Part shown: piece by piece, positions 21,110-30,616 of the stretch
Layout of the letters: each line of letters begins with the position of its first letter
How positions within the stretch are numbered: the stretch's first letter is position 1
Notes under the pieces: generated by a model
Database searches by the model: none
The model's input: the letters and a program-made list of their open reading frames with translations, nothing else
What the model was told of the DNA's origin: nothing
Position numbers and translations under genes: made by a program
Source: Bacillus multifaciens
GTDB lineage: Bacteria; Bacillota; Bacilli; Bacillales; Bacillaceae_G
Assembly: GCF_030756675.1 (NCBI RefSeq)
Contig: NZ_JAVBXD010000023.1
Coordinates: 1-64,000, forward strand
DNA: 64,000 nucleotides
Reading direction: 5' to 3'

Positions 21110-21228
21110 AAAGTGTAATAAGAAATATTTGGGCTCTAACTGTCATATGAAAATAAAGGGTTAACTGAACTGCAATGTAATTCACTAAGCTAACGAATAG
21201 ATTGTGAAGATGAGTGGGAGGGGAACAT

Positions 21229-22071
21229 ATGGATTCAAGGAAAGCATCTTTGAGCTTCGAGAAAGCTAAATGTGGTGGTCTTTATGAAGGTGCCATGTAT
21301 ACAATCATCGTCAATAGGCTTAGGACGGCTGGTTGTGTTTTCGCCGAAGATGAGGCACGGCTGCTTATTTCTGCGGCCATGACGCCGGCTGAACTTGCCG
21401 CCATGGTGGACCGGCGAGTAACTGGTTTTCCTCTCGAACACATCATCGGATGGACGGAGTTTTGTGGTCTACGGATAGCGGTGGGACCGGGAGTCTTCGT
21501 ACCCCGCTATCGCACAGAGTTTCTCGTCCGCCAGGCTGCCGCCCTCACTCGGCCAGGAGCTGTCGTAGTTGACCTGTGTTGTGGTTCGGGTGCATTGGGC
21601 GCTGTACTGGCTGCAATGCAGGAACGGATTGAGTTATACGCCTCCGACATTGACCCAGCTGCGGTGCAGTGTGCTTTGCAAAACGTCGCTGCAATCGGTG
21701 GTCGTGTGTACGAAGGTGATCTCTATGAAGCATTGCCCACCATACTGCGCTGCCGCGTCGATGTCCTAGTTGCGAACACACCCTATGTACCTACCGAGGC
21801 GATCAGGCTGCTCCCTTCAGAGGCTCGCATACACGAGGCGCGTGTGGCGCTTGACGGGGGAACGGATGGGCTTGATATACAGCGACGAGTGGCGGCTGAG
21901 GCATCGCTTTGGCTGGCACCTGGTGGCCATCTGCTTGTTGAGACGAGTGAGTGGCAGGCATCGTATACCGCCGAGATATTCACTCGGAATGGGTTGATAC
22001 CGCGTTTGGCCAGGTCTGAAGAGCTGGATGCCACCGTGGTCATCGGAGCGAAGAAAATCAGTAGGGGATAA
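21229..22071 (+). CDS. HemK/PrmC-family class I methyltransferase (putative protein N5-glutamine methyltransferase)
   Basis: The 280-residue SAM-dependent methyltransferase has motif I VVDLCCGSGALGAVLA near residue 120, an acidic loop YASDIDPAAVQCA and the catalytic-type motif VLVANTPYVPTEAI. Here NTPY replaces the usual NPPY of HemK/PrmC. The N-terminal ~90 residues form the helical substrate domain. Base composition is strikingly G+C-rich compared with the AT-rich neighbours, so recent transfer from a high-G+C donor is likely. ATG 21229 follows GGGAGGGG; the GTG at 21214 lies inside that ribosome site. A perfect hairpin follows the stop. Confidence 0.85.
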   Translation: MDSRKASLSFEKAKCGGLYEGAMYTIIVNRLRTAGCVFAEDEARLLISAAMTPAELAAMVDRRVTGFPLEHIIGWTEFCGLRIAVGPGVFVPRYRTEFLVRQAAALTRPGAVVVDLCCGSGALGAVLAAMQERIELYASDIDPAAVQCALQNVAAIGGRVYEGDLYEALPTILRCRVDVLVANTPYVPTEAIRLLPSEARIHEARVALDGGTDGLDIQRRVAAEASLWLAPGGHLLVETSEWQASYTAEIFTRNGLIPRLARSEELDATVVIGAKKISRG

Positions 22072-22899: not shown

Positions 22900-22994
22900 C
22901 CCATTTAAACCTTTTTTCCGATAATAAAATGAGAAGCATACAAAAAGGTATATGGCAATCAGTCAATCACCTTACGATAAAGGAGGATTTGAAA

Positions 22995-23594
22995 ATGTCT
23001 CTTTCACAATTCAATATTGATGTCTTTCGAGCAATCAATGATTTAGGTAAACAATATTCGTTCTTAAACTCGGCCATGGTATTCTTGGCGGAATATATGG
23101 TATATATTTTAGGCTTAATTATTATCGCTTATTGGTTTACCGGGTCCAGAAAAGGTAGGATGATGGTTATTCAGGCGATGATTGCTTTTGTAATTGCTGA
23201 GGTGGTTGGAAAAATAGCAGGGAAATTCCATTTCAATTATCAACCGTTTGCAGTGTTGCCTGATGTGAATAAACTTGTCAATCATGCGGTAGATAATTCA
23301 TTTCCTAGTGACCATACGATTCTATTTTTCTCAATTTGTTTTTCGTTTTGGCTTGTTCATAAAAAGACTTGGTGGTTATGGCTTATACTTGCATTTTGCG
23401 TAGCGATCTCTCGTATTTGGGTAGGAGTTCATTATCCTTTCGATGTTGTAATAGGAGCTTTAATAGGATGTGTTTCAGCGGTATTTTCGTATTGGTTAGT
23501 ACCTAGATTTTCTTTTATCACACAATTGCTTACTCTATATGAAAGAGTAGAACAACATGTTTTACCATCCAAAAACAAATCAAAGGGATTTTGA
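22995..23594 (+). CDS. bcrC: Undecaprenyl-diphosphatase (BcrC/PAP2 type)
   Basis: The 199-residue integral membrane phosphatase has five to six hydrophobic segments. It recycles undecaprenyl diphosphate for peptidoglycan synthesis and gives bacitracin resistance. The PAP2 signature is complete in BcrC style: GKFHFNYQPFA, then PSDHTILFF (catalytic His) and SRIWVGVHYPFDVVIG. The ribosome site AAAGGAGGATT fixes ATG 22995, and the 22-codon in-frame extension upstream has none. It converges on the SCIFF maturase gene across a shared terminator. Confidence 0.92.
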   Translation: MSLSQFNIDVFRAINDLGKQYSFLNSAMVFLAEYMVYILGLIIIAYWFTGSRKGRMMVIQAMIAFVIAEVVGKIAGKFHFNYQPFAVLPDVNKLVNHAVDNSFPSDHTILFFSICFSFWLVHKKTWWLWLILAFCVAISRIWVGVHYPFDVVIGALIGCVSAVFSYWLVPRFSFITQLLTLYERVEQHVLPSKNKSKGF

Positions 23595-23619
23595 GTATAC
23601 AAGTATAAAAATCTTTAAA

Positions 23620-23662
23620 GAGGCTGAGCATAAGTCAAACATTGACTTATGCTCAGCCTCTT
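23620..23662. terminator. Bidirectional terminator bcrC / SCIFF maturase
   Basis: A perfect 20-bp inverted repeat starting AGAGGCTGAGCATAAGTC with a 3-base loop, A-rich before and T-rich after. Confidence 0.92.
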
Positions 23663-23677
23663 ATTATATCTTTGTAC

Positions 23678-25069
23678 TTATTCAGCTTTTTCAATAGCTC
23701 TCATGGATTCAACCACTTTAACCATCATGGAACATTCGACCCTCTTACGGAAGATGTCACAACTGAAATCGTAGATTCCATTGATGGAGCCAGTTGCGTG
23801 CAGCGCATTGGCAGGGCAGCCGCCGCTGCAGTAAAGCTTCGCCCAACATTCCTGACATTCTGGCTTAGAATAACAGTTGCTTTCTTTAAATTGGCACGCT
23901 GTTTCTTGTTTTGTAATTCCATCCCAGATATTTCCCATGCTGTATTCTTGATCTCCAACAAATTGGTGGCAAGGGAAGAGCTCGCCCCATGGTGTGACAG
24001 CGAGATATTCGGTTCCTGAGCCGCAACCTGAAATTCTCTTTTGGATGCAAGGGCCTTCAGAGAGATCAAGCATGTAATGGTAGAAGGTGAAGCCATTGCC
24101 TTCTTCCTCACGCTTTAGCATTTCCTGGGCGAGAATTTCGTACTGGTTGTAAATCTCAGGTAGGTCTTCTTCGGTAAGTGCATATGGTTCCCGAGGATCA
24201 CAGATGACTGGTTCCATCGAGAGTTTGTCGAAACCAAGATCTGCGATATGAAAAATGTCATTAGTAAAGTCGACGTTGTTGTGAGTGTAGGTTCCACGCA
24301 CATAGTATTCTTTATCTCCACGCTTTTCGATGAATTCCTGGAACTTCGGAACGATATAATCGTAGCTGCCCTTTCCAGTTACTGTTTTACGCAGGTGATC
24401 GTGGACTTCTTTTCTTCCATCAAGACTTAATACGACGTTGTACATTTCCTTGTTTAAGAACTCCGTGACCTCATCGTTTAAGAGCATCCCATTTGTAGTG
24501 AAGGTGAAGCGAAAAGTTTTTTTGTATTCTTTTTCTTTGCTTCTTGCGTAAGTGACAATTTGTTTAACAACTTTCCAGGCCATAAGCGGTTCTCCGCCGA
24601 AGAAGTCGATGTCGAGGTTTCGGTGGTGACCGGAGTTTTCTAGTAGATAATCGATCGCTCTTTTACCAACCTCATAGCTCATAATCGCCCTATTTCCGTT
24701 GTATTTTCCTTGGCTGGCGAAGCAGTATTCGCATGACAGATTGCATGTATGTGCGACGTTGAGGCAGAGGGCCTTTACATAAGTTTGGCGATTTCTTAAA
24801 TCAATTGAGAGATTCTTAAATTCATCCGCAGTAAAGAGTTGCCCATCATTTTTCAGCTCTTCAATATCTACGATTGTTTCTTGAATGTCCTTCTCAGAGA
24901 TGCCTGCATCATGTGCGTATTTTTCCAGCATCATTGTTACGATTGCTTCCGCAGGAGTAGTCTCATAAAGCGCGATAATTTCATAGGCGAGATCGTCGAC
25001 AACATGTACCGATCCACTATAGGTATCGAGCACGATGTTGTAGCCGTTTAGTTTATATTGATGAATCAT
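23678..25069 (-). CDS. SCIFF peptide maturase, radical SAM/SPASM thioether-forming enzyme (ScfB-like)
   Basis: The 463-residue enzyme has an N-terminal peptide-recognition (RRE-like) region (residues 1-90). The radical SAM cluster C109-x3-C113-x2-C116 lies in HTCNLSCEYCF. A SPASM domain rich in auxiliary-cluster Cys ends the protein: ISGCGSGTEYLAVTPWGELF-PCHQF, CYSKPECQECWAKLYCSGGC and CDIFRKRVEC. FFGGEPLM is the Gly-rich SAM-binding block. The family installs Cys-to-Thr thioether links in the SCIFF precursor. The precursor gene lies 114 bp upstream on the same strand, separated by a hairpin. The system is known mainly from Clostridia, so transfer is likely. Confidence 0.93.
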   Translation of the reverse strand: MIHQYKLNGYNIVLDTYSGSVHVVDDLAYEIIALYETTPAEAIVTMMLEKYAHDAGISEKDIQETIVDIEELKNDGQLFTADEFKNLSIDLRNRQTYVKALCLNVAHTCNLSCEYCFASQGKYNGNRAIMSYEVGKRAIDYLLENSGHHRNLDIDFFGGEPLMAWKVVKQIVTYARSKEKEYKKTFRFTFTTNGMLLNDEVTEFLNKEMYNVVLSLDGRKEVHDHLRKTVTGKGSYDYIVPKFQEFIEKRGDKEYYVRGTYTHNNVDFTNDIFHIADLGFDKLSMEPVICDPREPYALTEEDLPEIYNQYEILAQEMLKREEEGNGFTFYHYMLDLSEGPCIQKRISGCGSGTEYLAVTPWGELFPCHQFVGDQEYSMGNIWDGITKQETACQFKESNCYSKPECQECWAKLYCSGGCPANALHATGSINGIYDFSCDIFRKRVECSMMVKVVESMRAIEKAE

Positions 25070-25095
25070 ACTTGATAATCAAGCTCCTTTTATTT

Positions 25096-25113
25096 ATAAA
25101 GTGAAACTTCCAT
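25096..25113 (-). repeat. AGTTTCACTTTAT element end, copy 5
   Basis: On the minus strand ATGGAAGTTTCACTTTAT lies between the SCIFF precursor and maturase genes, just before the maturase ribosome site. Confidence 0.5.
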
Positions 25114-25141
25114 TATACCTGTTCATACGGGATAAAAATGG

Positions 25142-25168
25142 CCGCCCATCTGGGAAGCAGCTGGGCGG
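25142..25168 (-). terminator. Hairpin between SCIFF precursor and maturase genes (partial terminator)
   Basis: On the minus strand CCGCCCA / TGGGCGG is followed by CCATTTTTATC. A weak terminator here would make more precursor than enzyme mRNA, which is common in RiPP operons. Confidence 0.65.
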
Positions 25169-25183
25169 TACGTGTCTTGTTTC

Positions 25184-25333
25184 CTATCTGTTCATTGTGT
25201 TTTCACACTTTTGATTTGCAACTCCGCAAGACGTTTTGCAAGCTGATTGGCAAGATGTTTGGCATGCGCCACATCCACCATGTTTTACCGTATCCATTAG
25301 TTTACGAGTGCTAAGTGTTACGATTCTTTTCAT
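25184..25333 (-). CDS. SCIFF ribosomal peptide precursor (six cysteines in ~45 residues)
   Basis: A 49-residue peptide that begins MKRIVTLSTRKLMDTVKHGG and continues CGACQTSCQSACKTSCG-VANQKCEN. The six Cys (residues 21, 24, 28, 32, 36, 43) and the QTSCQSACKTSC core match the SCIFF family of Clostridia. The ribosome site AAAAGGAGTT precedes ATG 25333 by 7 bp. It is the natural substrate of the adjacent radical SAM maturase, which would link Cys to Thr by thioethers. The mature product's role is unknown even in Clostridia. Three Fnr-type sites lie upstream. Confidence 0.92.
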   Translation of the reverse strand: MKRIVTLSTRKLMDTVKHGGCGACQTSCQSACKTSCGVANQKCENTMNR

Positions 25334-25354
25334 GACGTATAACTCCTTTTAAAA

Positions 25355-25461
25355 AGTATTTTTTAAGTAACAAGCTCCATGTTTGTGAATTACTTCACAT
25401 TAAAAGTTATAATTTGTGAATCGTTTCACATTTACAACTGCAATTTGTGATTGCTTTCACA
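25355..25461 (-). promoter_or_regulatory. SCIFF promoter with three phased Fnr/Crp-type sites
   Basis: Three copies of TGTGA-N6-TCACA lie at 25384-25399 (TGTGAATTACTTCACA), 25415-25430 (TGTGAATCGTTTCACA) and 25446-25461 (TGTGATTGCTTTCACA). Their starts are exactly 31 bp apart, about three helical turns. On the minus strand a possible -10 AATACT (25355-25360) puts the nearest site about 42 bp upstream of the expected start point, the class II activator position. TGTGA-N6-TCACA is the Bacillus Fnr consensus. The sites are seen directly; the regulator is inferred. Confidence 0.8.
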
Positions 25462-25701
25462 TTAATTTCAGTAATTATTTTAACAATACCTTCGATTTAC
25501 GTCAATTACTCGTGTTGTTTTGATACTGCGGAAATGCCACTTGATTGTGGGTCTTCTTTTTTTCATCGCGATGTGAAGGGTATTGAGAGTTTAAAACTTT
25601 CTCATATAATTATGATTTGGGATTTCCTATTATATAATAGGGAATCCGTCCGTTCTTAAGATCATAAACGGACGGAGATTTTTATTTTACGAGTTTTGCG
25701 A
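25462..25701. other. Intergenic region with a rightward terminator
   Basis: No convincing gene. CCGTCCGTT (25646-25654) and AACGGACGG (25668-25676) form a hairpin followed by AGATTTTTATTTT, a terminator for rightward transcripts although no intact rightward gene precedes it. The 70-codon rightward frame at 25447 overlaps the Fnr sites and lacks a ribosome site. Confidence 0.45.
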
Positions 25702-26769
25702 TTATGACCCCTGCGCGCGATATTTTCGCTGCAATTCTTTTAATTCTTCTACCAAATCCTCTCCAATCGTAGGAGCAAGTTTATCATATATGGGTGATAG
25801 CGTTTTTTTCCACTCCTGTTGCTCTTTGTTAGTTAGTTCGTGAATTTGAATCGATGAGTTTTGTTTAATCAGTTCAAGTTGTTCTTTATTTATTTGAGCG
25901 GCTTGTTGGTTATTCCAATCAGTAGTTTCTTTCATTGCTTCTGTTAATATTTGCTTCGTTTTTTGGGTTTGCTTGTTCCAAGTTTTTTGATCCATCATGA
26001 CAACATATCCTAAATATCCGTGGTTACTAATTGTCAAATAGTTTTGAACGTTATAGAATTTTTTAGAGTAGATATTTGAAATGGTATTTTCTTCACCGTC
26101 AACTTTTCCTGATTCAATTAATTGATATGTAGAATTGAATGAATCTTGATGCGACTTAACCTTTAATAAATCGAATTGGGATTGGATAACATTGCTTTGC
26201 ATAATGCGAAAAGATTGTCCTTGTATATCTTTTGGTGTATAAATAGGTCCTTTGTTTGAAGTGATTTGCTTAAAGCCGTTGGACCAGTGGGCAAGCCCTT
26301 TTATTCCATCTTTTTGTAAGGATTGAAGTAATTGTTCCCCAATTTTTCCGTTTAAGCCTTCTTGCAAGGCTTCATAATTTGAAAAAGCAAATGGTAAATC
26401 AAGTACACCCCATTCAGGGGAGAACGTTCCAAGCTTTGATGTGGAGGGCGCAATCATTTGTACTTGTCCAGATTTTAAAGCGTGAAATTCTTCTATATCA
26501 GAATATAGGCTTCCGTTAGGGAAGACCTCTATTTTTATTTTACCATTTGATTTTTCATTCACGAGTTCCGCAAATTTGTTAGCAGCAAGCCCTTTCGGTG
26601 TATTTTCTGCGACAACATGGCTAAATTTGAAGACGATCTGGTCTTTTAGCCCGTCTTGGTCATCGTCATATGAGAGTTCATTTTGAGGAGAGTGCCCCTG
26701 ATGAATAAAAAATAAAGCGCTTGCAATAAAAGTGATAAAAAGGAGTGTAAAAATAGCTGCTTTTTTCAT
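25702..26769 (-). CDS. dctB: TRAP-type C4-dicarboxylate-binding protein (DctB/DctP family)
   Basis: The 355-residue extracytoplasmic solute-binding protein starts with an uncleaved-looking signal anchor (AIFTLLFITFIASALFFI). Typical TRAP-binding motifs follow: FKFSHVVAENTPKGLAANKF, IEVFPNGSLYSDIEEFHALK, GQSFRIMQSNVI and KVDGEENTISNIYSKKFY. No TRAP membrane subunits are nearby. In B. subtilis the homologous DctB works with the DctS sensor, and here the gene is divergent from dctS. It probably presents C4-dicarboxylates to the sensor rather than to a TRAP permease. Confidence 0.9.
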   Translation of the reverse strand: MKKAAIFTLLFITFIASALFFIHQGHSPQNELSYDDDQDGLKDQIVFKFSHVVAENTPKGLAANKFAELVNEKSNGKIKIEVFPNGSLYSDIEEFHALKSGQVQMIAPSTSKLGTFSPEWGVLDLPFAFSNYEALQEGLNGKIGEQLLQSLQKDGIKGLAHWSNGFKQITSNKGPIYTPKDIQGQSFRIMQSNVIQSQFDLLKVKSHQDSFNSTYQLIESGKVDGEENTISNIYSKKFYNVQNYLTISNHGYLGYVVMMDQKTWNKQTQKTKQILTEAMKETTDWNNQQAAQINKEQLELIKQNSSIQIHELTNKEQQEWKKTLSPIYDKLAPTIGEDLVEELKELQRKYRAQGS

Positions 26770-26790
26770 CGTCGTTCTCCTTTTGAAGTA

Positions 26791-26868
26791 GTTATCCCGT
26801 AAAAGCCCGATTGGTGAGGGCTTTCCATCAGTGAGAAATGCGTCACTGATGGAAGTTTCACTTTATTG
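26791..26868 (+). repeat. Two-hairpin dispersed element, copy 6 (best preserved)
   Basis: The element runs ATCCCGTAAAAGCCCGATTG, then GTGAGGGCTTTCCATCAGTG, then a second hairpin CCATCAGTGA/TCACTGATGG, ending GGAAGTTTCACTTTATT. It lies between dctB and dctS. The first hairpin and the terminal motif recur near 10.75, 22.1 and 63.15 kb. It is a small non-autonomous, structured repeat. Confidence 0.75.
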
Positions 26869-26928
26869 TAAGCATACCGAGAAGATTTCTATTCGTAAAG
26901 ATGCTTTTAGGAGAAAGGAGGTCCAAGT

Positions 26929-28530
26929 GTGAGGAATTTACCAATCCGTTGGAAGATTACGATTCTTTCTTATGCAGTTGTTATCGTTTCACTCATGATT
27001 GGTGGAGGGATTATCGTCGCGAATATTCAACAAAAAGAAGAGAAAGAATTAAGAATTAGATCTATGAATACAGCACGAACAGTAGCAGAAATGTCAGATG
27101 TAAAGAAGTCTCTTCAAGAAAAAAATGGGTGGGTAACGTTAAATTCTGTTATTGAAAATATTAGAGTTATTAATGAAACAGATTATATTGTTGTTATGAA
27201 TATGGAGCGAGTTCGCTATTCACATCCTGTGAAAGAAATGATAGGAAAAGTTTCAAAAGGAGCAGATGAAGAAGCGGCATTTGCAGAGCATATTTATTTT
27301 TCAAAAGCAAAGGGAGAAATAGGTACTGTCATTCGTGCTTTTATGCCTATTAAAGATCAAAACTTAAACCAAATCGGCGTTGTTGTGGTAGGAAATAAAA
27401 TACCAAACTTCTTTGAGATTATGAGTGAATTAAGGGGAGAAATTCTTTTTATAGTCATCTTAACTTTAATACTTGGATTGATAGGTTCGTTAATGCTTGC
27501 TAATCATATAAAAAAACAGATGTTTCAGTTGGAGCCATATGAGATTAAAAGAATACTTGAAGAAAGGACAGCAACCTTTCATTCCATGAATGAAGGGGTG
27601 ATTGCAATTGATAATCAAGAAATGATTACGGTTTTTAATGAGAAAGCGAAACAAGTTTTTCATGTAAATGGAGACGTTGTCGGACAGCCTATTCGAAAAA
27701 TATTACAGGATACAAGGCTTCCGGAAATCGTGGAGAAGAATCAAGCGGTATACAATGAAGAGATAAAAGTAAGTGGCAAAGTCATTTTAAGCAATCGCAT
27801 ACCTATTAAGAAGGATAATGAATTAATCGGAGCTGTGGCAATTTTTCAAGATCGTACGGAAGTAACGAAGCTTGCGGAAGAATTAACTGGGGTAAAGAAC
27901 TTTGTTGAGGCCCTGCGTGTGCAAAGTCATGAGCATATGAATAAACTTCATACAATTGCAGGTCTAATTCAGCTCGGTAAAGCTGATAAGGCCTTGCAAC
28001 TTGCCTACAACACTTCAGAAGAACAGGAGAACGTAGCAAACTTTTTAAATGAGACAATTAAAAATGATGCCGTTGCAGGGCTTCTTTTAAGTAAAATAAG
28101 TAGAGGAAAAGAGCTCGGAATTCAAGTGAATATTGATCAAAATAGTTATTTAGAAGCTTTTCCGTACCAATTAGATCAACATGATTTCGTTGTTTTATTA
28201 GGGAATTTAATAGAAAATGCATTTGGGTCATTTGAACAAATTGAGGCAGCAGATAAAAGAATTGATATTAGTATTGAGCAGTCAGAGGATGTGTGTGCGA
28301 TCTTAATAGAAGATAATGGATGCGGAATAAAAGAAGAACATTTACCAAGGTTATATGAAAAAGGATTTACTGTGAATAAACGTGACGGGACAGGTTATGG
28401 TCTTTTTCTAGTAAAACAAATTGTTGAAAAAGGAAGAGGAGAAATTAAAATTTCATCTTTTGAAGGTGAAGGAACTAGCTTTATCATTACTTTTCCAATG
28501 GGGATGGAGGCGGAATTGTATGGCGTATAA
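26929..28530 (+). CDS. dctS: Sensor histidine kinase of the CitA/DcuS type (DctS)
   Basis: The 533-residue membrane kinase has a TM segment (~12-31), an extracytoplasmic PAS-like sensing domain (~35-165), a second TM segment (~170-192) and a cytoplasmic PAS domain (~210-320). The H-box is QSHEHMNKLHTIAGLIQLG, and the ATPase domain has VLLGNLIENA, IEDNGCGI and GTGYGLFLVKQIVE. This is the DcuS/CitA class, which senses di- or tricarboxylates. GTG 26929 follows AAAGGAGG. The end overlaps dctR by 11 bp. It should respond to C4-dicarboxylates and activate dctP through DctR. Confidence 0.93.
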   Translation: MRNLPIRWKITILSYAVVIVSLMIGGGIIVANIQQKEEKELRIRSMNTARTVAEMSDVKKSLQEKNGWVTLNSVIENIRVINETDYIVVMNMERVRYSHPVKEMIGKVSKGADEEAAFAEHIYFSKAKGEIGTVIRAFMPIKDQNLNQIGVVVVGNKIPNFFEIMSELRGEILFIVILTLILGLIGSLMLANHIKKQMFQLEPYEIKRILEERTATFHSMNEGVIAIDNQEMITVFNEKAKQVFHVNGDVVGQPIRKILQDTRLPEIVEKNQAVYNEEIKVSGKVILSNRIPIKKDNELIGAVAIFQDRTEVTKLAEELTGVKNFVEALRVQSHEHMNKLHTIAGLIQLGKADKALQLAYNTSEEQENVANFLNETIKNDAVAGLLLSKISRGKELGIQVNIDQNSYLEAFPYQLDQHDFVVLLGNLIENAFGSFEQIEAADKRIDISIEQSEDVCAILIEDNGCGIKEEHLPRLYEKGFTVNKRDGTGYGLFLVKQIVEKGRGEIKISSFEGEGTSFIITFPMGMEAELYGV

Positions 28531-29218
28531 AGAGGAATTTAAAGTAGTGCTAATCGAAGATGATCCAATGGTTCAGGAAGTAAATAAAGAGTTTATAAAA
28601 AGTGTAAAAGGGTTTCAAGTAATTGCTATCGCCAGCAATGGCGAGGAGGGGATTAGCTTTGTAAAAAAAATGAATCCAGATCTTGTTATTTTGGATATCT
28701 TTATGCCTAAAAAAGATGGTATTCAAGTATTGCAGGAATTTCGAAAACAACAATTAGAAACGGATGTAATTGTTGTTTCTGCTGCGAAAGATAGGGAAAC
28801 AATTAAACTCATGCTGCAAAATGGAGCAATAGATTATATTATTAAACCTTTTAAGTTGCATCGCATCCAGCAAGCGTTAGAGAAGTATCGCCAATATAGA
28901 ATAAGTTTGAGAGATTCTGGATCTATTTCGCAGGAACAGCTCGATTTATTATTATATTCTGGGCGCTCTGAGAGAACGATGAACAATTTACCAAAAGGTT
29001 TAAATGAGTTTACATTAAATGAAATTGTAACGTATGTAAAACAGCAGGAAGAACCTCGTTCTGCTGAAGATGTGGCGCGTGCCATTGGCATAGCTAGAGT
29101 GACGGCTCGTCGTTACTTAGATTATTTAGAAAAAAAGGGTGTTATTCATTTGGCAGTTCAGTATGGGGGAGTTGGAAGACCGATTAATCGTTATGTGTTT
29201 CGAGCAATGAAAAGTTAA
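28520..29218 (+). CDS. dctR: Response regulator DctR (CitB family)
   Basis: The 232-residue regulator has an N-terminal receiver domain: VVLIEDDPMVQEVNKEFIKS, the phospho-acceptor Asp in LVILDIFMPKKDG and a Lys in IIKPFKLH. The C-terminal helix-turn-helix contains EDVARAIGIARVTARRYLDY. ATG 28520 (MAYKEEFKV) follows GGATGGAGG inside the dctS end; the longer upstream frame overlaps dctS extensively and is not used. Its likely target is the dctP gene 120 bp downstream. Confidence 0.93.
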   Translation: MAYKEEFKVVLIEDDPMVQEVNKEFIKSVKGFQVIAIASNGEEGISFVKKMNPDLVILDIFMPKKDGIQVLQEFRKQQLETDVIVVSAAKDRETIKLMLQNGAIDYIIKPFKLHRIQQALEKYRQYRISLRDSGSISQEQLDLLLYSGRSERTMNNLPKGLNEFTLNEIVTYVKQQEEPRSAEDVARAIGIARVTARRYLDYLEKKGVIHLAVQYGGVGRPINRYVFRAMKS

Positions 29219-29338
29219 GACCAAAATGAACAAAATATTCGTTATGACCATAAACTTCTCTCTTTTTAATGTAAACGCTATCATTATGTTAGAAACGAAC
29301 AGATAGAAAATTTAGAAAAATCAAAGGGGAGAAGAAAG

Positions 29339-30616
29339 GTGAAACGACTCTTTAAAAATTTAACCTTTCAAGTATTAACGGCTATTGTACTTGGGGTGTT
29401 AGTTGGATTACTTTGGCCAAGTGTTGGTAAAGAAATGAAGCCGATAGGCGACACATTTATCAATGCTGTAAAAATGGTAATTGCACCAATTATTTTCTTA
29501 ACAATTGTACTCGGTATTGCCAAAATGGGGGATATGAAAAAGGTTGGTAAAGTCGGCGGAAAAGCTCTTATTTATTTTGAGGTGGTAACGACATTTGCCC
29601 TTATTGTTGGTTTAATTGTTGTAAATGTTATGAAGCCAGGAGAAGGCCTTAACTTTAATGAGCTTGCAAAAGGGGATGTATCAAAATATACCCAAAACGG
29701 TGGAAACGGCATTAACTGGATTGAGTTTGTTACCCATATCGTTCCGTCTAATATGGTTGATGCGTTTGCGAAAGGTGATATTTTACAAGTATTATTCTTT
29801 TCGATTTTATTTGGTGTAGGATTAGCGGCTCTTGGGGAAAAAGGAAACTCAGTCATTGATTTCTTAGACAAACTTTCACATGTATTCTTTAAAATTATTG
29901 GTTATGTAATGAAAGCTGCACCGATCGGGGCATTTGGTGCTATGGCATATACAATCGGTAACTTTGGACTTGCTTCGCTTGTACCACTTGGTAAATTAAT
30001 GATGTCAGTATATATAACGATGTTCTTATTCGTTTTTGTAGTTTTAAATATTATTTGTAAGATATATGGATTTAGTTTATGGAATTATTTAAAATTTATT
30101 CGAGATGAGATATTAATTGTATTAGGAACAAGTTCTTCTGAATCTGTATTGCCAAGAATGATGAATAAGATGGAGCGATATGGATGTTCAAAATCTGTTG
30201 TTGGTCTCGTTATTCCAACAGGTTATTCCTTTAATCTTGATGGTACGTCTATCTATTTATCCATGGCAGTTGTCTTTTTAGCACAAGTATTTGGTATCGA
30301 TCTAACAATTGGACAGCAAGTTACCATTATTTTAGTACTTATGTTAACGTCTAAAGGTGCTGCAGGTGTGACAGGAAGTGGATTTATTGTATTAGCTTCT
30401 ACGTTAGCTGCGTTAAAGGTTATTCCTTTAGAAGGATTAGCGTTACTTCTTGGGGTCGATCGCTTCATGAGTGAAGGAAGAGCCATCGTAAACTTAATTG
30501 GAAACGGGATTGCAACAATCGTTGTCGCGAAGAGTGAAAATGAATTTGATGAAGCAAAGCACGCAGAAGCCGTTTCTGGTATAAAAGGATTAGCAGAGGC
30601 GAAGGAAGCTGTATAA
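29339..30616 (+). CDS. dctP: C4-dicarboxylate:proton/sodium symporter (DctP of B. subtilis, DctA family)
   Basis: The 425-residue integral membrane carrier of the DAACS family takes up succinate, fumarate and malate. The serine-rich motif LGTSSSESVLPRMMNKMERY and the signature PTGYSFNLDGTSIYLSMAVVF are diagnostic, with about eight hydrophobic segments and the hairpin TSKGAAGVTGSGFIVLASTL. The gene starts at GTG after GGGGAGAAG. Its place behind dctSR indicates substrate-induced expression. A terminator follows. Confidence 0.95.
   Translation: MKRLFKNLTFQVLTAIVLGVLVGLLWPSVGKEMKPIGDTFINAVKMVIAPIIFLTIVLGIAKMGDMKKVGKVGGKALIYFEVVTTFALIVGLIVVNVMKPGEGLNFNELAKGDVSKYTQNGGNGINWIEFVTHIVPSNMVDAFAKGDILQVLFFSILFGVGLAALGEKGNSVIDFLDKLSHVFFKIIGYVMKAAPIGAFGAMAYTIGNFGLASLVPLGKLMMSVYITMFLFVFVVLNIICKIYGFSLWNYLKFIRDEILIVLGTSSSESVLPRMMNKMERYGCSKSVVGLVIPTGYSFNLDGTSIYLSMAVVFLAQVFGIDLTIGQQVTIILVLMLTSKGAAGVTGSGFIVLASTLAALKVIPLEGLALLLGVDRFMSEGRAIVNLIGNGIATIVVAKSENEFDEAKHAEAVSGIKGLAEAKEAV

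Follow-up and report, generated by a model that had tools for sequence, protein, structure and literature searches.

SCIFF peptides are modified and occur typically in strict anaerobes; the closest described system is the ScfA-ScfB pair, represented by CteA-CteB of Clostridium thermocellum and captured by the profiles TIGR03973 and TIGR03974. Two further systems invite comparison: the PapB/freyrasin-type ranthipeptides of Paenibacillus (NF047865), which likewise have a radical SAM/SPASM thioether maturase, and the Rex regulon of Bacillus and Staphylococcus (ldh, adhE, lctP, ndh), controlled by a sensor of the NADH/NAD+ ratio. The locus described here lies in a stretch of 64,000 nucleotides of DNA that was analyzed as a whole (the window). 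It resembles CteA-CteB in that its precursor and maturase score above both family cut-offs, the maturase cysteines align with those of PDB 5wgg, Cys32 and Thr34 are in place, and a hairpin separates the genes; it differs in that it belongs to a Bacilli-type sublineage, whose loci have no neighbor common to most of them, and in that a putative redox-type operator array lies in front of it. With the Rex regulon, it shares a TGTGAA-N4-TTCACA palindrome near a predicted sigma-A promoter, the boxes being one to two mismatches away from TTGTGAA-N4-TTCACAA; here, however, the likely target is a RiPP operon preceded by three tandem putative operators at 31-bp spacing. This predicted operator array, together with its recurrence in Bacilli, is what is new. 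The features of the locus are as follows.

25477..25505, minus strand: predicted sigma-A promoter of the SCIFF cassette, TTGACG-N17-TAAAAT with an extended -10 region (pattern and recurrence)
25446..25461, unstranded: putative operator 1, TGTGAAAGCAATCACA, starting 15 bp past the -10 hexamer and differing from the Rex 18-mer at 2 positions
25415..25430, unstranded: putative operator 2, TGTGAAACGATTCACA, spaced 31 bp from operator 1 and differing from the Rex 18-mer at 1 position
25384..25399, unstranded: putative operator 3, TGTGAAGTAATTCACA, spaced 31 bp from operator 2 and differing from the Rex 18-mer at 1 position
25184..25333, minus strand: scfA, SCIFF precursor of 49 amino acids with six cysteines and the core CGACQTSCQSACKTSCG (intact reading frame, family profiles)
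25131..25168, minus strand: terminator-like hairpin with a T-run that separates scfA from scfB, a proposed attenuator (folding and recurrence)
23678..25069, minus strand: scfB, radical SAM/SPASM SCIFF maturase of 463 amino acids (intact reading frame, TIGR03974, alignment with PDB 5wgg)
23618..23662, unstranded: strong inverted repeat of 20 pairs after scfB (repeat search and folding)

The window pair is a canonical SCIFF pair and extends a known family by one member. In profile searches, the scfA product reaches 78.6 bits with TIGR03973 (cut-off 50) and 80.8 bits with PF13165 (cut-off 27), and the scfB product 745 bits with TIGR03974 (cut-off 425). A preliminary description of this DNA had recognized an intact scfA of 49 residues with six cysteines, a full SCIFF pair, and a C109-x3-C113-x2-C116 motif in the maturase; both intact reading frames, as well as the motif, stand. 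Residues 1-454 of ScfB align with the solved maturase PDB 5wgg, which we take to be CteB (E 4.9e-161), and the radical SAM CxxxCxxC and SPASM/auxiliary-cluster cysteines are in register when the alignment is read by eye. Two other maturase families were considered and rejected: the ScfB-related orphan maturases (NF040492; 541.4 bits against a cut-off of 855) and the PapB ranthipeptide maturases (NF047865; 282.5 bits against 340), from whose system the window locus also differs in its SCIFF-type precursor. The gap between scfA and scfB amounts to 114 bases, within the distance of less than 500 bp between a TIGR03974 maturase and its precursor that a passage in PMC5300114 uses to define SCIFF pairs.

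The core of the precursor follows the pattern CG[A/E]CQTSCQSACKTSCG, all positions of which except the A/E one are invariant in 86 of the 88 loci scanned; the two loci outside this count are L040, where the end of the contig cuts the precursor, and L081, where the first cysteine is replaced by a histidine (1158-1307 of that locus; GGHGECQTSC) in what is the earliest-branching Bacilli-type precursor. A distant Bacilli-class member (L089), whose maturase scores above the cut-off, has kept all six cysteines. The fifth cysteine is exchanged for Val, Met, Ile, Leu or Ala in all nine precursors from divergent Bacilli-class genomes (L090-L098), the partner maturases of which pass TIGR03974 despite the missing residue. 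These nine precursors retain the segment SCQSACK[T/S]S and thus Cys32 and Thr34 (Ser in L093), both of which are also present in the window precursor. It is these two residues that the gamma-thioether of CteA joins, according to a passage in a review that mentions an earlier assignment to Cys32-Thr37 as well (PMC8326336); provided that the CteA numbering carries over, position 37 is a glycine in the 86 core-matching loci. One Lachnospiraceae MAG (RGIG4203; L073) possesses two tandem SCIFF precursor modules in a single open frame, each with a full CGECQTSCQSACKTSCGVANQ core. Comparison of the window precursor with the PDB yielded no more than weak matches of the iron-sulphur type (E 0.029 for the best whole sequence, whose best domain has an E of 9.9).

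A conserved role inside the cell or in signaling would fit the invariant core better than the function of an antibiotic. That the product is an antimicrobial or population-signaling ranthipeptide and not an intracellular peptide strikes us as unlikely, albeit as a proposal to be taken seriously: the review just cited gives the function of SCIFF as quorum sensing, with reference to Chen et al. 2020 (PMC8326336), and a passage in another one reports that, in C. beijerinckii, sporulation genes went down and agr went up upon disruption of the pair (PMC8102284). A core frozen across classes is nevertheless unusual for an antimicrobial, and the surroundings of the pair speak in the same direction, as no constant neighbor was seen in 34 Bacilli-type loci, and hence no exporter, protease or immunity gene that regularly goes with the pair; no gene family occurs in more than nine of them, and the larger families are mostly from Trichococcus. 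A PAP2-family phosphatase gene is found near scfAB in three Bacillaceae loci (the window at 22929-23594, plus strand; L004; L016), in differing arrangements. On the other side of the pair (25702-30616), the window carries, side by side, genes for a TRAP solute-binding protein (DctP), a pair of the DcuS/DcuR type and a dicarboxylate symporter of the DctA type, and this group adjoins the predicted redox-type promoter.

Exact TGTGA-N6-TCACA palindromes occur three times in the 64-kb window, all of them at the scfA promoter, against an expectation of 0.07, and no shuffle reaches three. Measured against the Rex 18-mer consensus, TTGTGAA-N4-TTCACAA, all three boxes are near matches and none is exact. 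Operator 1 is positioned to block the promoter, given its start 15 bp after the -10 hexamer and a start site that is itself predicted. Promoter-like matches within the window are not above chance (4 found versus 5.6 expected), and the promoter call is supported not by the window statistics but by the recurrence of the pattern across Bacilli-type loci: TTGAC-N17-TANNAT is present in 17 of 39 upstream regions, with a mean of 0.09 and a maximum of 2 in shuffled sequences. The interval marked by the preliminary description ended at 25461, exactly where the outermost palindrome ends; the array itself is missing from that description.

The operator is by no means confined to the window. Of the 39 Bacilli-type loci, 19 carry the pattern GTGAA-N4-TTCAC, with at most one mismatch and within 200 bases of scfA (against a mean of 0.49 and a maximum of 3 in shuffles). 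None of 22 clostridial scfA upstream regions carries it, these 22 being the ones, among 47 clostridial loci, in which the stricter pattern picks up a precursor and sufficient sequence precedes it. The Bacilli-type set includes one clostridial-class record (L020, Sedimentibacter) and leaves out L087 and L088, which repeat L006 and L001, respectively, as well as L081, whose histidine-bearing precursor is missed by the precursor pattern and which, by eye, has no operator. Operator density is one per 355 bases upstream of scfA versus one per 33,692 bases elsewhere in the same Bacilli-type loci. Since related loci share ancestry, the shuffles overstate independence; counted by clusters of upstream sequence, the operator is present in 11 of 27. 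In eight loci (the window, L001, L002, L005, L006, L007, L011 and L086), all of which match the promoter pattern as well, the distance from the -10 hexamer to its start is 14-15 bp; in L082 it is 8 or 14 bp, depending on the choice between two overlapping promoter matches. L007 has a second operator site 103 bp upstream. In four of the 19, all from Trichococcus, the match runs into the -10 hexamer and may have nothing to do with the others. The layout of promoter and operator is common to the window, Neobacillus and Brevibacillus.

The remaining 20 of the 39 Bacilli-type loci lack the operator, among them the Paenibacillus alvei-type loci and Bacillus massilionigeriensis, a species with 17 Rex-like sites elsewhere in its genome and none at its SCIFF locus. 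When inspected by eye, L017 has a different, perfect inverted repeat, GATTGTGAG-N7-CTCACAATC, about 60 bases upstream of scfA in place of a Rex-type operator, and the operator-less Paenibacillus loci L015, L018, L022, L028, L029 and L031-L033 have in common, around the -35 region, a TGTGACCTTTTTGATTG-like stretch that may be the site of another regulator. The clostridial-type Rex site TTGTTAA-N4-TTAACAA, allowing up to three mismatches, gave no signal in the 22 clostridial regions (2 matches versus 1.12 by shuffles); the 11 matches among the 39 Bacilli-type regions (1.91 by shuffles) are taken to represent the GTGAA-N4-TTCAC operators again, picked up by a more permissive pattern.

As to the protein that would bind these sites, we infer that Rex is the best candidate and that a protein of the Fnr/CRP type is its main rival. 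The Rex DNA-binding domain is encoded in all nine SCIFF genomes searched, which are relatives of the window. Within one mismatch of TTGTGAA-N4-TTCACAA, the Neobacillus genome G001 has 18 sites versus 2 for the reversed control, and the other eight genomes have 3-17 versus 0-4 (7 versus 2 in G402). Only in G001 and G402 is the SCIFF operator itself among these one-mismatch sites; in G005, G114, G403 and G404 it deviates by two mismatches and falls outside the respective sets, and among the rest of the nine it is either lacking or at least two mismatches away. The other 17 sites of G001 are located before or between genes in 12 cases and inside genes in five. Some of them precede adhE (1373 bits, cut-off 951), the lactate permease gene lctP (TIGR00795; 591.8 versus 341), and the gene for a Dcu C4-dicarboxylate transporter (633.9 versus 369); two of them adjoin a gene for a pyridine-nucleotide-disulphide oxidoreductase that, at 114 bits and below the cut-off of 310, can tentatively be read as NADH-dehydrogenase-like, and four scanned neighbors belonged to no family at the threshold used.

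TGTGA-N6-TCACA is also the motif of Fnr/CRP-type regulators, proteins that read nearly the same sequence as Rex. The same redox or anaerobic control could thus be exerted by such a protein in place of Rex, an alternative that we regard as distinctly unlikely. It would accommodate the sites of G402 that precede an arginine deiminase gene and a fragment resembling formate dehydrogenase (below cut-off), both of which fit an anaerobic regulon. Set against it are adhE and lctP, Rex-type targets that adjoin the same motif in G001, and the position of the operator 14-15 bp after the -10 hexamer in eight loci, where an activator of the Fnr/CRP family is not expected to work; a location downstream of the promoter favors a repressor. 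At ldhA of B. cereus, motifs for ResD and Fnr overlap the Rex motif, which lends the alternative some weight, and passages of the same study report that B. cereus Rex shifts an ldhA fragment with a two-mismatch motif and that NADH impairs this binding (PMC4162614). A link between SCIFF and Rex was not found in the titles of the SCIFF/ranthipeptide literature among the matches listed, a search that covered few subscription journals.

Between the two genes, and exactly at the coordinates given in the preliminary description (25142-25168), lies a hairpin with the stem CCGCCCA/TGGGCGG that is followed by the T-run CCATTTTTATC. Its fold has a predicted energy of -16.9 kcal/mol (z -2.93), and 2 of 200 shuffles fold at least as well. 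Terminator-like hairpins are present between the genes in 36 of the 39 Bacilli-type loci (36 of the 37 intergenic regions tested; 6.4 expected) and in 45 of the 47 clostridial ones (45 of 45 tested; 16.0 expected), as judged with 20 mononucleotide shuffles per sequence, and their stems have many different sequences. They are missing from the Paenibacillus loci L007, L008 (with an intergenic region of 34 bases) and L010, and from the clostridial L057, loci whose genes overlap or nearly touch, L007 and L010 being the two Bacilli-type loci set apart from the 37 tested; L040, whose contig starts after the precursor, lies outside the judgement. The idea, put forward in the preliminary description, that the hairpin favors an excess of precursor consequently fits a feature that is widespread, and the recurrence suggests that it might serve as a general setter of the peptide-to-enzyme ratio. 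The inverted repeat after scfB probably serves as a common terminator for scfB and the PAP2 gene that converges on it. A search of 23500-25800 against Rfam returned ten weak matches, none of which attains the gathering score.

The maturase places the window locus in a Bacilli-type clade. Among the best 80 of 455 relatives, identity to the window maturase is 90% in Neobacillus, 83-89% in other Bacillaceae, 80-88% in Paenibacillus, 87% in Brevibacillus, 80-82% in Trichococcus, 81% in one Sedimentibacter record, and at most 69% in the remaining, clostridial rows. In a tree of 59 maturases (39 Bacilli-type and 20 clostridial), the Bacilli-type rows form a single clade with 100/100 support, in which the Sedimentibacter record is nested in Trichococcus and Brevibacillus falls within the Neobacillus/Bacillus group; the place of the window among its Neobacillus, Bacillus and Brevibacillus surroundings is weakly supported (87/51), the set of 27 rows being better supported (96/85). 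The tree against Clostridia, which the preliminary description had called for, puts the window maturase in a Bacilli-type rather than a clostridial clade, and this, together with the closeness to Neobacillus, means that SCIFF in Bacilli is not unique to the window genome. The Sedimentibacter record (L020; Sedimentibacter sp. SX930) has a Trichococcus-type scfAB with Trichococcus-like neighbors and reflects either a recent transfer or a contaminated assembly.

The pair is nonetheless not a vertical trait of all Bacillus, in agreement with what had been supposed: 18 of the 398 Bacilli genomes drawn (G001, their center, included) pass TIGR03974, eight of them with at least 738 bits and thus with a Bacilli-type maturase, and the other ten with 469-635 bits. 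It is absent from 19 genomes of the family closest by glmM, where two 28-base matches are due to chance. The GC3 of scfB, 0.463, stands out from the 0.22-0.36 of 11 other window genes measured, which include scfA, at 0.320 not deviant; the PrmC-related gene is set apart from this comparison. The latter, a methyltransferase gene (21214-22071, plus strand; TIGR03704, 407 bits) with a GC3 of 0.524 in a low-GC genome, looks foreign in its own right. Because of the deviating GC3 of scfB and the absence of the pair from the 19 nearest-family genomes, it was probably acquired, and, in view of the tree and the identity values, from a SCIFF lineage already within Bacilli (Neobacillus, Brevibacillus, Paenibacillus, Trichococcus) and not directly from a clostridium. 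Of the transfer envisaged in the preliminary description, the acquisition thus holds, while a source straight in the Clostridia does not. The assignment of the host to the Bacillus cereus group is plausible without being proven: the window GlmM has 31 differences in 448 positions to PDB 3pdk (counted by hand), and the best glmM DNA matches are 77% among the 398 Bacilli genomes and 79% among 397 genomes of one order, so that close kin of the window probably lie outside the genomes sampled.

A direct arrival from a clostridium, with the operators arising later by chance, could invoke the foreign composition of scfB and the wide spread of SCIFF among Clostridia noted in a passage of PMC8326336. 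With an identity of 90% to Neobacillus and of no more than 69% to the clostridial rows (bar the Sedimentibacter record, in the best 80 of 455), a single Bacilli-type clade (100/100) in a tree containing 20 clostridial rows, and a promoter and operator layout shared with Neobacillus and Brevibacillus, this scenario appears largely refuted, and we rate it as the least probable of all those considered. Hardly more credible is a silent relic of transfer that has fallen out of use; the absence of the pair from the 19 nearest-family genomes would suit it, but both genes are open and canonical, and promoter, ribosome site, hairpin and terminator can all be predicted for them. Carriage by a plasmid was dismissed, the one weak match among plasmid records being in a chromosome-sized record, as was carriage by a phage: 103 records of the phage collection match, and the closest are unannotated contigs from human feces with at most 61.5% identity.

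Taken together, we consider it probable that the window carries a self-contained, redox-gated SCIFF cassette that combines Rex-type repression, derepression without oxygen, and attenuation at the hairpin. As long as NAD+ is plentiful, a repressor, most likely Rex, would sit on the operators just downstream of the transcription start and hold the sigma-A promoter off, and the in-phase arrangement of the three operators (31 bp, about three helical turns) should make for a tight block. Once oxygen or another electron acceptor is exhausted, NADH would rise, Rex would leave the DNA, and the operon would be transcribed. Many transcripts would then end at the hairpin after scfA, yielding an excess of precursor, and a minority would read through into scfB, whose product, one of the oxygen-sensitive radical SAM enzymes, would form the thioether of the core between Cys32 and Thr34, by analogy with CteA. 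Like the redox gating as a whole, Rex binding, derepression, attenuation and cross-link are steps that we infer from motifs, folds and alignments.

To our knowledge, strict anaerobes offer no obvious natural condition in which SCIFF is switched off. Bacilli whose SCIFF operon is preceded by a redox-type operator would supply such a condition, along with genetic access, a signal predicted to induce the operon, and naturally occurring variants, and the operator array and its recurrence would make the role of SCIFF directly testable in facultative hosts. As a wider reading, held tentatively and with more doubt than confidence, SCIFF may be a conserved peptide that belongs to cells in an anoxic or reduced state and not a secondary metabolite; facultative Bacilli would have placed the cassette under NADH/NAD+ control together with their fermentation genes, either several times or once with later loss, and the window lineage would have tripled the operator. 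If this is true, SCIFF would act inside or between cells in the adaptation to oxygen limitation, and its function could be found in facultative hosts, where it would be both switchable and deletable.
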